Virus record (IMG/VR): IMGVR_UViG_3300008113_000507
Location: 1 to 27,402 of that record
DNA: 27,402 nucleotides
Origin: a virus
Reading direction: 5' to 3' (one strand)
The notes under the pieces are model-generated. The model searched no databases and was not told the DNA's origin. It saw only the letters and a program-made list of their open reading frames with translations. Positions 11,522 to 27,144 of the stretch are shown one piece after another (position 1 is the stretch's first letter; each line of letters starts with the position of its first letter). The position numbers and the translations under genes were made by a program.

Positions 11522-12370
11522 ATGCCAGCTCCAACTCCAAGAGTAAGGGACGTATCATTTTTAAGAACGAAGATAATGCAACCAGCATTAACTTCGCATT
11601 ATGAAGTTTATATCTTGCCTCCGCCCGAAGCAAAATCATTTATAGATCAAAGTAGATTTCCCTTTGATATTACTGATTTATTGACAGTATCTTGTACTGA
11701 AGCATCCCTTCCTGGTTCTCAACTTGCAACTCATGATTTGAATAATGATTTTACTGGAGTTACTCAGAGACATGCTTATAGAAGAATCTATGATGATAGA
11801 ATAGATTTTACCTTTTATGTGAATGGTACTGGGTACGATCAAATCAGATATTTTGAAGCATGGATGAGATATATTTCTGGAGAACAAGTAACAGGAGCAG
11901 AAGATCTTAATAGGAATTATAGATTTACATATCCAAAAAAATACAAATCAGGATCTGTTAGCATTACTAAATTCGAAAGAAATTATGGTTCTAAGACTGG
12001 AAAATCTTCTGGTTCTATTACTTATAAATTTATTAATGCTTTCCCTATATCAGTGACTTCAATGCCGTTGTCTTATGACTCTTCTCAATTATTGAAGTGT
12101 ACTGTTGCCTTTTCTTATGATAGGTATGTTGCTGGAAATATAGAGGGAACTATTCCGCAACAAGAACCAGGACAATCTCCAGCAACTGGAGTTCCTAATC
12201 CTAATGATATTTCTTATACTGGAGTGACTGTAAAACAGCAAGATATATTTGAAGGTAATGCATCAATAAGTGGTAACTATTTTAATACATCACCAAATCA
12301 AAATAATAGACAAACAAATCTTGGTATAGGTGCTAATGATTTGTCTGGAACAACATCAAATATTGCATAA
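11522..12370 (+). CDS. 54: baseplate tail-tube initiator, gp54-like
   Basis: A 282-aa protein with a tail-tube-like fold. It shows LTVSCTEASLPGSQLATHD early, a central DRIDFTFYVNGTGYDQIRYFE strand-helix unit like the tube-protein core, and FINAFPISVTSMPLSYDS followed by LLKCTVAFSYDRYV, the usual C-terminal strands. T4 gp54 (320 aa) shares this layout, and the gene sits close to gp48 and gp26. The last 70 residues are Asn/Gln/Gly/Ser rich and probably flexible. A gp19-type tube protein is an alternative, though it would be shorter. No Shine-Dalgarno or + strand promoter is obvious, since the divergent promoter abuts the ATG. A terminator follows at 12369. Confidence 0.7.
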   Translation: MPAPTPRVRDVSFLRTKIMQPALTSHYEVYILPPPEAKSFIDQSRFPFDITDLLTVSCTEASLPGSQLATHDLNNDFTGVTQRHAYRRIYDDRIDFTFYVNGTGYDQIRYFEAWMRYISGEQVTGAEDLNRNYRFTYPKKYKSGSVSITKFERNYGSKTGKSSGSITYKFINAFPISVTSMPLSYDSSQLLKCTVAFSYDRYVAGNIEGTIPQQEPGQSPATGVPNPNDISYTGVTVKQQDIFEGNASISGNYFNTSPNQNNRQTNLGIGANDLSGTTSNIA

Positions 12371-12399: not shown

Positions 12400-12720
12400 T
12401 CACTGATTGTTATTGCAAAACAGAGTTTCAAATTTGTTAGATGCGTACTCTGCATCTTTTTCATTTCCTCCAGCAGAAAACATGAACTGTTTTTGAAATT
12501 CTACGTTTCCGCAAGCAACTGTTGCTGTTTTGATGATGGTATTTGCTCCTGGAGTATTCAAGAGATTAGTGAATTTACTTCCTGTTTCTGAATCTACTTG
12601 CTTAATAAATTCAATTTGACTCTCTGTAAGGTCTGTACTATTACTTACAGTTGATGCAATTGAAGGAACTGCAGTTGCTCCAATAATACCTGCAAGTACA
12701 AATCCAATGTTTTTAATCAT
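12400..12720 (-). CDS. small exported protein with signal peptide (106 aa)
   Basis: Start chosen at 12720 because the sequence then begins with a signal peptide (MIKNIGFVLAGIIGATAVPS), with likely cleavage after IAS. The frame stays open further upstream, but that would pass through the promoter. The mature part is about 83 residues, polar, with two cysteines (C70, C102) that could form a disulfide. No family is recognised. The gene is on the strand opposite its structural neighbours and has its own sigma70-type promoter and terminator, so it behaves as an independently expressed insertion. A role at the host envelope is a guess. Confidence 0.68.
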   Translation of the reverse strand: MIKNIGFVLAGIIGATAVPSIASTVSNSTDLTESQIEFIKQVDSETGSKFTNLLNTPGANTIIKTATVACGNVEFQKQFMFSAGGNEKDAEYASNKFETLFCNNNQ

Positions 12721-12847: not shown

Positions 12848-13567
12848 ATGCCTTTACCAAAAATTGCAACTCCAACATATGAGTTGGAACTACCTTCAAC
12901 TGGAGAAACAATTAAGTACCGTCCTTTTCTGGTTAAGGAAGAAAAACTTTTAGTTATTGCATTGGAATCTGAAGATACTAAACAGATTACAACCGCAATC
13001 AAAACTGTTATTAAAAATTGTATTCAAACTAAAGGAATTAAAGTAGAGTCTCTTCCTACTTTTGATATTGAATATTTGTTCTTGAATATTCGTGGAAAAT
13101 CTGTTGGTGAAGAAATAGAAGTTAATATTGTTTGTCCTGATGATGAAGAGACGAATGCAACGGTAAAAATAAATGTAGATGATGTTAAGGTTCAAAGAAA
13201 CGAAGAGCATACTAATAAGATTAAACTAGATTCTCATCTGATGATGGAAATGAAGTATCCTTCACTGGATCAATTCATTAAGAGTAATTTTGATCTTTCT
13301 GATAATAATGCAATGGACCAATCATTTGAGTTAATTGCTTCTTGTGTAGATAAAATTTACAGTGAAGATGAAGTTTGGGCTGCTGCTGATGTAACCAAAA
13401 AAGAATTGATGGAGTTCTTAGATCAGATGAATACAACTCAATTCAAGCAAATTGAGAATTTTTTTGCAACAATGCCTAAACTTTCTCATAAAGTTATAGT
13501 GAAGAATCCTAAAACAGAAGTTGAAAGTGAGGTAGTTCTGGAGGGTCTTTCAAGTTTTTTCGCATAG
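12848..13567 (+). CDS. 26: gp26 baseplate hub subunit
   Basis: A 239-aa homologue of T4 gp26. The family start is clear (MPLPKIATPTYELELPSTGE, then IKYRPFLVKEEKLL), followed by TAIKTVIKNCIQT, FDIEYLFLNIRGKSVGE and a C-terminal helical region. An AGGAG lies just before the ATG and a CATAAATA element 25 bases upstream. The last codons, AGT TTT TTC GCA TAG, contain a slippery heptamer (13555-13561). A -1 shift there would join the next ORF, giving a product of about 302 aa instead of 239. T4 gp26 is required for hub assembly; a chaperone-like use of the long form would be by analogy to lambda G/GT and P2 E/E'. Confidence 0.9.
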   Translation: MPLPKIATPTYELELPSTGETIKYRPFLVKEEKLLVIALESEDTKQITTAIKTVIKNCIQTKGIKVESLPTFDIEYLFLNIRGKSVGEEIEVNIVCPDDEETNATVKINVDDVKVQRNEEHTNKIKLDSHLMMEMKYPSLDQFIKSNFDLSDNNAMDQSFELIASCVDKIYSEDEVWAAADVTKKELMEFLDQMNTTQFKQIENFFATMPKLSHKVIVKNPKTEVESEVVLEGLSSFFA

Positions 13568-13585
13568 CACTGATCCATATGGATC
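13555..13585 (+). other. candidate -1 programmed frameshift site
   Basis: The heptamer T TTT TTC (13555-13561) is in the correct phase with gp26 codons TTT TTC, two codons before the TAG. After a 10-base spacer comes a perfect palindrome, GATCC-ATAT-GGATC (13572-13585), able to form a 5-bp hairpin. The -1 frame is open from the slip to 13755, through the downstream ORF. Confidence 0.6.
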
Positions 13586-13755
13586 TTGAAAATTATTTTC
13601 GACTCAATTTTTCGTTGATGCAGTATCATAAATACTCATTGACGGAAATAGAAAATATGATACCTTGGGAAAGAGACATTTACGTTGAACTTCTCAAGCA
13701 ACATTTAGAAGAAGAAGAGTACAAACAGCAGGCACAACAAAGTAATGGCTGGTAA
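13579..13755 (+). CDS. gp51-position ORF, probable frameshift extension of gp26
   Basis: A 58-aa ORF beginning MDLENYFRLNFSLMQYHKYS, then LTEIENMIPWERDIYVELL and a Glu/Gln-rich coiled end. It starts 11 bases after the gp26 stop, has no Shine-Dalgarno, and its ATG lies in the loop of a small hairpin. It is in the -1 frame of gp26 and open back to the slippery site. In T4, gene 51 (hub assembly) is next to gene 26, so it may be a short gp51 counterpart. Helix-rich extensions with EIExMxPWER-type motifs also occur in tail-assembly chaperones. It overlaps the next gene by 11 bases. Confidence 0.72.
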   Translation: MDLENYFRLNFSLMQYHKYSLTEIENMIPWERDIYVELLKQHLEEEEYKQQAQQSNGW

Positions 13756-16309
13756 TCCTACCTCAACACGACCAAAAATAACGTCAAGTAGTTTTGGATT
13801 ATCGACTGCTGGTGAAAGATTGGGTGGAAAATATAAAACCATAAAAATTTCTTCTCCGGAAAAGGCAACATCAAATAGTCTCAATAATATTAATAAGACT
13901 CTTGATTCTATTTTAAATACACTTTCAGGTCTTAATAAACAAAGTCTAAGAGAAAGTGAACTTTCTCGAAGAGAATCTGAAAAGAAAAAAAGACAAAGTA
14001 GAGAACAGGGGTTAGAGTCAAAGACTTTTGATGGAATAAAAAAAGCACTATCAGTAATTACAAAACCATTTGAATCTATCTTTGATAAGATATGGAATTT
14101 TCTTTATTATACTATACTTGGAAAGATAGGAATTAAATTAATTGATTGGTTTGCAGATCCGAAAAATCAGGGTAAAGTTAAATCTCTAATTCGATTTGTA
14201 ACTGATTGGTGGCCTGCTTTACTTGGTGGATATATTTTATTTGGAACTACGTTTGGAAGGTTAATTCGTTCTACCACCGGGATGGTAGGTAGATTTATCT
14301 TCCAAATAGGTAGAGTTGCAATTCCTCAACTTTTAAGATTTATATCTTCCAATCCATTAATTGCTGCTGGAGCAGTAACTGGATTGGCTGCCGGTGGTGC
14401 TGAAATGTGGAGGCAGGGTGAAGAAGAAAAACAAATACAAAAGGAAGCAAAGAAACGTAATCTCAAACCACAAGATGTAAAGAGTGAAGTAGAAAAATCA
14501 AAGGCATCACCATTTGCATTATTCGGACAGGGGATGTCTGCTGGATTTTCTGGAGGTGGATTTGCTACCTCTGGATTGATACGTGGTCCTAAAGGGGTAG
14601 ATAAAGTTCCTGCAATGCTTACTGATGGTGAGTTTGTTATGTCTGCGGGGGCAGTTCAGAAATATGGGGTGGATACTCTTGAATCAATGAATGCTGCAGG
14701 GGGTGGAACTAACCAACCTAAAATTATTAATGGTGCTACTTATGCTTATGGTGGAGGAAGTATAGGTGGGGGATCGGAAAAACCTTATTCAGGTCTTCCT
14801 GGAGAAGATTCTGTTGCTAAATTGAGAAAAGATTTTAATAATTTTTTTAAAAACAACGGTGCTGGTCCAAACTTTGATATTGGTAATCCAAGAACCTGGG
14901 GAGGAGGTGGTGGATTTAATATTCCGAACATTCCTGGATTACCTTCGGCTGGAGGTAGTGGATTTAGATTGCCAGGATTGCCGAGAGGAGGTAATATTCC
15001 CGGATTACCATCTGGACTAGGAAGAGATTTTAATAGAGGAAAGAAATATTTAAAAGATACTTACAATCAGATTATAAATGATCCTCGTGTAAAGGAGGGT
15101 GCTGCTGCGGCAAGACAAGTTTACAATAAGGGAGCACAATTTGTTGAAGGTATAAAGAAAAAGGGCATAGAAAAGGGGTATCTAAATGAAAAGGGACAAC
15201 TATCTGGGGCTGCAAAAAATCAAGCAACAAATTTTTTAAGTGATTTACTCCCCAATCTTCCAGGAGTTAATCAGTTAAATAAAAAACTTACAGAAAACTA
15301 TTTAAAGAACATTGGACTTACTAGAGAAAATGCTAAGTATGGAGACATGTCTTCCCAAGCTTTATTAACAGGAAAATCTGGTATTGATAGTGCGTATAAT
15401 ATCGGGCAATTACAACTGAATAAAATGAGTAAAGAAAGTAAGCAAATTTATATGAAAATATTGAAGGAAAAAATGGCATCTGGAACTTTAAAAAGTGGTG
15501 ATGTTATTAATCCTTATAGTAAAGTTAATAAGAGTGATCCTAGATATAGAGAACAAGGAAGTGTTAGATTTTATGTGGATCCAAAAACAGGAAAGGGTTA
15601 TTTACTTGATACTTATGGATTTGATCCTGGAAAAGTTGATTTAGGTGGTCCTGGTTCAGCAGCTGATAAGCAATATAAGGAACAGTTAAAAACCTTTCAA
15701 GATCCAAATAAAAAAATTAAACTTGGTCCTCTTGATATTCCAATTGGAAAAATTGCTAAAAAGTTAGATTTGAGACCAATGCAAGATGCCACAGAGGGAG
15801 GTGGATTACCTCAATACATTCTTGCATTACGAAATAAGATATTTGGTTATGATCCAAGAAAAGAAGGTTCTAAATTAGATCCTAAAAGATTTAAAACCAA
15901 AGCTCAGATTGATGAATTAAAAGAACTTGGTGATCTTAAAAAGTTTGCGGCAAAACAATTAACTCCACAGCAAAAAAAATTGATTGATGAAAAATTAAAA
16001 AAAGAAAAAAGAGAAGAAGAAAAGAAAAAATTTGAAAAGAAAAATCCAGGAGCAATACTCTACAATAAACCGCAAAAAAATACGGGACAGTCATACAAAT
16101 CAAATTTTTCCCGACCAAGAAATGCTGGAGTTCCTCCGGTAAAACCACCAGTAAAACCTGCACCAAAAGTAGTTAGAGTATCTAAACCAATTGGAACTGG
16201 TGGTGGAGGAATAAGTAAGGGTTCTAATAGTCAAAAAGCACCAAGTCCATCACCAAGACATCCAAAGGGAACAGGGACAACTCAAAGGACGACAGGAACT
16301 AAGAGATAA
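13745..16309 (+). CDS. tape-measure-like tail protein (854 aa)
   Basis: A large structural protein, recognised by general tape-measure features. The charged, coiled N-terminal 100 residues are followed by hydrophobic segments at about 155-178 (WWPALLGGYILFGTTFGRL) and 183-218. At about 270-316 is the motif GLIRGPKGVDKVPAMLTDGE, then FVMSAGAVQKYGVDTL, which recurs in many tail tape-measure proteins. Gly/Pro-rich repeats (NIPGLPS, RLPGLPRGG) lie at about 395-425 and the C-terminus is Lys/Pro rich. T4 gp29 is the counterpart by position, though sequence identity is not visible to me. It starts inside the preceding ORF and ends two bases before the next large gene. Confidence 0.68.
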   Translation: MAGNPTSTRPKITSSSFGLSTAGERLGGKYKTIKISSPEKATSNSLNNINKTLDSILNTLSGLNKQSLRESELSRRESEKKKRQSREQGLESKTFDGIKKALSVITKPFESIFDKIWNFLYYTILGKIGIKLIDWFADPKNQGKVKSLIRFVTDWWPALLGGYILFGTTFGRLIRSTTGMVGRFIFQIGRVAIPQLLRFISSNPLIAAGAVTGLAAGGAEMWRQGEEEKQIQKEAKKRNLKPQDVKSEVEKSKASPFALFGQGMSAGFSGGGFATSGLIRGPKGVDKVPAMLTDGEFVMSAGAVQKYGVDTLESMNAAGGGTNQPKIINGATYAYGGGSIGGGSEKPYSGLPGEDSVAKLRKDFNNFFKNNGAGPNFDIGNPRTWGGGGGFNIPNIPGLPSAGGSGFRLPGLPRGGNIPGLPSGLGRDFNRGKKYLKDTYNQIINDPRVKEGAAAARQVYNKGAQFVEGIKKKGIEKGYLNEKGQLSGAAKNQATNFLSDLLPNLPGVNQLNKKLTENYLKNIGLTRENAKYGDMSSQALLTGKSGIDSAYNIGQLQLNKMSKESKQIYMKILKEKMASGTLKSGDVINPYSKVNKSDPRYREQGSVRFYVDPKTGKGYLLDTYGFDPGKVDLGGPGSAADKQYKEQLKTFQDPNKKIKLGPLDIPIGKIAKKLDLRPMQDATEGGGLPQYILALRNKIFGYDPRKEGSKLDPKRFKTKAQIDELKELGDLKKFAAKQLTPQQKKLIDEKLKKEKREEEKKKFEKKNPGAILYNKPQKNTGQSYKSNFSRPRNAGVPPVKPPVKPAPKVVRVSKPIGTGGGGISKGSNSQKAPSPSPRHPKGTGTTQRTTGTKR

Positions 16310-26863: not shown

Positions 26864-27144
26864 GCGAGTATGGTGGAATCGGTAGACACACCAGACTTAT
26901 GAAAATTGAGCCTCATTTGAGAAATCTTATGAGTGTAATTCCTCAAATTCGGTGAAACCTGTAAAATGGCAATACCGAGCCAAGCATCGTAAGATGAAGG
27001 TGTAGAGACTAGACGGGGAACACCTAAACTGAAAAGTATGGTGAAGGTATAGTCCAGACCACAAACCGAAAGGGTAGTGAAAACTATAGTGGTACGAAAA
27101 TCTGTTGGGCATTGCCCGTGGGAGTTCAAGTCTCCCTACTCGCA
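26864..27144 (+). tRNA. trnL-UAA: tRNA-Leu(UAA), interrupted by a group I intron
   Basis: The 5' exon is 26864-26898 and the 3' exon 27097-27144. The acceptor stem GCGAGTA pairs with TACTCGC (27137-27143), with A73 at 27144 and no encoded CCA. The D-arm has GTG with CAC around GAATCGGTAGA. The T-arm is GGGAG-TTCAAGT-CTCCC. The long variable arm (GGGC-ATT-GCCC) is typical of Leu. After removing 26899-27096 the anticodon loop reads CTTAAAA with anticodon UAA between stems CCAGA and TCTGT, leaving one C-U mismatch at the top of the anticodon stem. The intron splits U34 from A35, the site used in cyanobacterial and plastid tRNA-Leu(UAA). Confidence 0.92.
26899..27096 (+). ncRNA. group I intron (IC3-like) in tRNA-Leu
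   Basis: 198 bases without an ORF of note. P1 pairs exon CTT (26896-26898) with GAG (26908-26910), giving the U-G at the 5' splice site. P2 is CTCAT with ATGAG. P4 is TCGGT (26949-26953) with ACCGA (26974-26978). The conserved segments GAGCCAAGC and GACTAGACGG are present. P7 is GACTA (27007-27011) with TAGTC (27050-27054). P9 parts include ACCAC with GTGGT and a GAAA-capped TAGT/ACTA hairpin. The intron ends in G (27096). The order and core sequences match the Anabaena tRNA-Leu intron as I remember it, but this one is shorter (about 249 there). Confidence 0.9.

Follow-up and report, generated by a model that had tools for sequence, protein, structure and literature searches.

Are gp26 and gp51 of T4-like cyanophages two separate proteins, or are they the products of a single gene whose reading frame is shifted by the ribosome? 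The question is raised by a 27,402-nt window (positions 1-27,402 of the IMG/VR record IMGVR_UViG_3300008113_000507) from a T4-like phage of ocean cyanobacteria, to which the coordinates below refer unless another locus is named. On the sequence evidence presented here, gp26 and gp51 very probably belong to a single tail assembly chaperone (TAC) gene, whose long form would be produced by a -1 slip at T_TTT_TTC.

Vladimirov and colleagues reportedly found frameshifting to be conserved across several groups of T4-like phages, with T4 itself using genes 26 and 51. Our literature search for gp26 or gp51 together with frameshifting returned unrelated phages only, and a 2016 recoding review describes G-T frameshifting as conserved 'except T4' (PMC5009743). 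Two later articles cite Vladimirov, Gautam & Davidson 2022 (Virology 566:9-15; doi 10.1016/j.virol.2021.11.003), one for some T4-like phages that encode the short form and a longer fusion in separate genes and do not frameshift (PMC10885494) and the other for poly-T slippery sites within the TAC-N genes of T4-like phages (PMC12846349). As far as these citing passages go, the chaperone genes had already been identified, so that the novelty for T4-like phages suggested in the first-pass annotation is not borne out and the present finding is correct without being new in kind. What we contribute, with no claim to priority, is how far this conservation reaches among the loci of cyanophages and pelagiphages, the absence of start codons, a selected and mobile RNA structure and the fold match.

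The 3' end of gp26 and the -1 frame

The gp26 gene (12848-13567, + strand) encodes a protein of 239 aa that matches PF12322 (T4_baseplate, 2.1e-75) and phrog_150 (1.3e-80), and its 3' end reads AGT TTT TTC GCA TAG. The heptamer T_TTT_TTC (13555-13561, +) lies in zero-frame phase and fits the pattern X_XXY_YYZ, while the -1 frame stays open between 13531 and a stop codon at 13753-13755. A -1 shift at the heptamer would therefore add an extension (13561-13755, +) carrying the gp51 domain or TAC-C, with matches to phrog_150 positions 242-281 and to phrog_634, and would complete a 302-aa fusion (TAC-NC) beside the 239-aa gp26 (TAC-N), the pair of short and long forms that is characteristic of a TAC. 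The predicted fusion junction is SSFF-RIALIHMDLENYF, and IALIHMDLENYFR in the predicted fusion begins before the ATG at 13579. That ATG has no Shine-Dalgarno (SD) site and opens the 58-aa ORF (13579-13755, +) that is usually listed as a gp51 gene of its own (phrog_634 'baseplate hub assembly catalyst', 6e-27); since this ORF matches phrog_150 positions 242-281, the phrog_150 profile already includes fused members. The first-pass annotation had described an in-phase heptamer, a -1 frame open into a 58-aa ORF lacking a ribosome site and a protein pair of about 239 and 302 aa; the first two were confirmed at these positions and the predicted sizes agree with the third.

Counting heptamers within the window was uninformative, as TTTTTTC occurs 23 times where 23.4 are expected by chance. 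Evidence from the single sequence is therefore weak, and conservation must carry the case.

Conservation of heptamer and phase among relatives

Relatives were taken from IMG/VR and a phage collection and provided 155 distinct junctions, of which 153 (153 of 154 true junctions) carry the heptamer in phase, as TTTTTTC (137), TTTTTTT (15) or TTTTTTG (1). Only Vibrio phage D504, with a divergent junction, and a T4-type gp51 locus (L167) that has no junction depart from this pattern. Alignment of the gp26 3' ends of many relatives, which had been proposed as a check on the first reading, thus bore it out. The heptamer is kept at identities to the query proteins as low as about 25%, and it is kept while the stop codon moves, the latter being found 7, 10, 13 or 31 nt past the heptamer start. 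This conservation is not due to chance and extends beyond the protein code: slippery codons were found at 152 of 152 Phe-Phe sites at the junction, compared with 60 of 732 Phe-Phe pairs elsewhere in these loci (8.2%).

The same heptamer is present in P-SSM2 and in Pelagibacter, Stenotrophomonas, Delftia, Vibrio KVP40, Aeromonas, Cronobacter, Nitratidesulfovibrio and Sinorhizobium phages. In a further set of annotated records, TTTTTTC or TTTTTTT was found in Aeromonas CC2 and Ah1, Cronobacter LPCS28, Caulobacter Cr30, Ochrobactrum OC and the jumbo phage Phosso, and was absent from Serratia KNP4 (Ackermannviridae). An open -1 frame is kept in both D504 (L090, 2410-2620) and KNP4 (L181, 3160-3370), where CTTTTCA or GTTTTCA replaces the heptamer; these phages possibly use a different shift site or reinitiation.

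Probable upstream and downstream stimulators

An SD-like GGAGGG (13540-13545, +) lies 9 nt upstream of the heptamer. At this spacing, the mean anti-SD duplex energy in the 153 relatives is -6.5 kcal/mol versus 0.2 within gp26, a strength that is partly imposed by Glu-Gly codons (synonymous null -5.1 kcal/mol). Downstream, GATCCATATGGATC at 13572-13585 (+) begins 10 nt after the heptamer and is a perfect palindrome whose predicted fold has a stem of 5 bp and an AUAU loop (GATCC-AUAU-GGAUC), in line with the hairpin noted at first reading. In the window alone the signal is modest, with a minimum free energy of -8.4 kcal/mol for the 45-nt region (z -1.7). Across relatives, mean downstream folding energy is -8.4 kcal/mol versus -5.5 kcal/mol when synonymous codons are permuted among them (z about -12), and this signal is limited to roughly 6-69 nt past the heptamer start, being weak elsewhere (z 0 to -5); as the permutation breaks the shared ancestry between codons, these control windows are the fair yardstick.

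The position of the stem is lineage-dependent, with GATCC-AUAU-GGAUC in the window and longer outer stems elsewhere, for example AUAGCUCUC...GAGAGCUAU. RNAalifold gave no consensus structure on the relatives, a perfect 12-nt palindrome occurs in only 33 of 153 of them, and the inner stem columns alone scored 3.13, not above the synonymous null (mean 3.04, maximum 3.15). On the first two results we reject a fixed, alignable hairpin, although selection for local structure is clear. Together, GGAGGG and the downstream structure are probable stimulators of the frameshift.

Gene order and fold of gp26

Upstream of gp26 lies a tail tube paralog (11522-12370, +; PF23849 Phage_TTP_2, 1.7e-16; phrog_45 tail tube, 1.9e-32), and the next gene after the fusion (13745-16309, +) encodes an 854-aa product with weak phrog tape-measure matches, whose positional equivalents in Cr30 and phiM12 are annotated as tape measure. 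The predicted chaperone gene thus stands between tail tube and tape measure genes, as is usual for a TAC, and the product of 13745-16309 would be its client. A reverse-strand ORF (12400-12720, -), opposite to the tail genes, occupies the space between the tube paralog and gp26, and its final 107 codons, counted from an internal ATG, resemble a small secreted protein. Near the end of the window there is also a Group I intron (26889-27078, +; Rfam RF00028, 64.9 bits).

For the structural model of gp26 (pLDDT 86.5), Foldseek ranked the HK97 tail assembly chaperone as the most probable match, at a non-significant E of 1.2. Structural realignment placed 3fgx (Z 8.1), 2ob9 (the HK97 chaperone, 7.9) and 3klu YqbN (7.3), matching over gp26 residues 1-96, ahead of the next row, at 4.9; the match to 2ob9 covers residues 1-86, with 84 residues aligned at 8% identity. 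A sequence search of solved structures returned no match, and a model of the T4-type gp51 long form had no chaperone match in the PDB. The N-terminal domain of gp26 thus resembles the HK97 tail assembly chaperone in its modelled fold, with moderate support, and gp26 adds to this fold a second domain of about 140 residues.

In phage lambda, gpG and gpGT are likewise a short/long pair made by -1 frameshifting upstream of the tape measure gene (PMC5009743). The likeness to G/GT proposed for our locus holds on gene order, short/long architecture and fold, whereas there is no detectable sequence similarity and gp26 is larger. The slippery site also differs, being G_GGA_AAG in lambda and T_TTT_TTC here.

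T4 and the two-gene state

T4 gene 51 consists of a gp26-like domain followed by a gp51 tail and is colinear with the frameshift product, the -1-frame extension of the window corresponding to the C-terminal part of T4 gp51, and T4 gene 26 corresponds to the short form. T4 therefore has homologous short and long forms, but as two divergently oriented genes without a frameshift. The gp26 genes of five two-gene phages (T4, 44RR, RB49-type G5211, ZZ1 and EC-F2) end without the heptamer, and the two-gene phages alter the Phe-Phe codons or residues; T4 has lost the slippery site and reads TTC TTT there. In a tree whose root is not established, one branch (support 99/97) splits the two-gene from the frameshift proteins. 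Since KVP40, Aeromonas CC2, Ah1 and phiAS5, and LPCS28 are Straboviridae with the frameshift arrangement, a duplication inside this family would be the simplest origin of the two-gene state.

Several two-gene loci have peculiarities of their own. A frame change interrupts the long-form gp51 in a Klebsiella-type phage contig (L169, 2501-3246) and in Acinetobacter ZZ1 (L174, 2487-3255), in the latter near a run of nine T; in these single records it reflects either sequencing error or slippage. Whereas the T4 pair is divergently oriented, the Pseudotevenvirus EC-F2 (L172, 2501-3794) has its gp51-like gene next to a divergent gp26-like gene, both on one strand.

Alternative explanations

If gp26 and gp51 were two separate proteins, gp51 would be made by translational coupling: ribosomes would terminate at TAG 13565 and reinitiate at ATG 13579. 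An ATG at the position seen in the window is indeed found in 77 of 153 relatives, and in KVP40, PhiW-14, Yut3 and Cr30 the gp51 ORF begins at an ATG overlapping the stop codon, so some separate gp51 may be made by reinitiation. However, 61 of the 153 junctions have no ATG, GTG or TTG ahead of the conserved -1-frame core, and there the domain cannot start alone from a common start codon; only 2% of relatives have an SD of -5 kcal/mol or better for the gp51-ORF ATG; the -1 frame between heptamer and ATG stays open and conserved; reinitiation leaves the heptamer unexplained; and T4 has both parts fused. We consider this explanation quite improbable. Three products may instead be made, namely short gp26, the fusion and, where the hairpin-loop ATG is kept, a gp51 domain on its own; the hairpin would then serve two purposes, as a stimulator of the shift and as a gate on initiation at the ATG. 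We regard this scheme as unlikely. In CC2 (L175, 3254-3420), Ah1 (L176, 3260-3425) and LPCS28 (L178, 3230-3392) the -1-frame gp51 domain is unannotated and shows as a gap ahead of the next gene, which likely explains why gp51 has been reported missing in a related phage.

The fusion might also come from slippage of the RNA polymerase on the T run, which comprises six or seven T and reads TTTTTTT in 15 relatives, but six T is short for efficient transcriptional slippage, the C after them is kept in most relatives, and an SD-like site and a selected RNA structure at distances typical of frameshifting favour the ribosome, leaving this origin barely credible. We give next to no weight to the heptamer as a mere by-product of the Phe-Phe at the gp26 end: the protein does have a conserved G-[LIM]-x-x-F-F motif, yet the rarity of slippery codons at other Phe-Phe pairs contradicts this account, and the two-gene phages have changed these codons or residues.

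A proposed model of one frameshifted chaperone gene

In a single frameshifted gene, the majority of ribosomes would terminate at TAG 13565 and yield the 239-aa short form, and a minority would slip by -1 on T_TTT_TTC (13555-13561) to produce the 302-aa long form with the gp51 domain, aided by pairing of the upstream GGAGGG with the ribosome and by the downstream RNA hairpin. As in the lambda G/GT pair, the gp26 portion would be expected to coat the tape measure protein from the following gene, and the gp51 portion to recruit subunits of the tail tube. What the sequences show is the heptamer and its phase, the open frame, the conservation, the selected RNA structure and a chaperone-like fold; the slippage itself, its efficiency and this division of labour are inferred.

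In cyanophage genomes a 'gp51 baseplate hub assembly catalyst' is routinely annotated apart from gp26, and in some relatives the second part is wholly missed; the reading as one frameshifted chaperone would correct hundreds of records. It would also explain why cyanophage gp51 appears about 80% shorter than T4 gp51 (PMC3037559), and it suggests why some Aeromonas phages seemed to be without gp51. For T4 itself, the role of gp26 and gp51 would become clear, the former being the short and the latter the long chaperone, and the switch in Straboviridae between a single frameshifted gene and a two-gene arrangement would provide a natural experiment on why frameshifting persists in phages.
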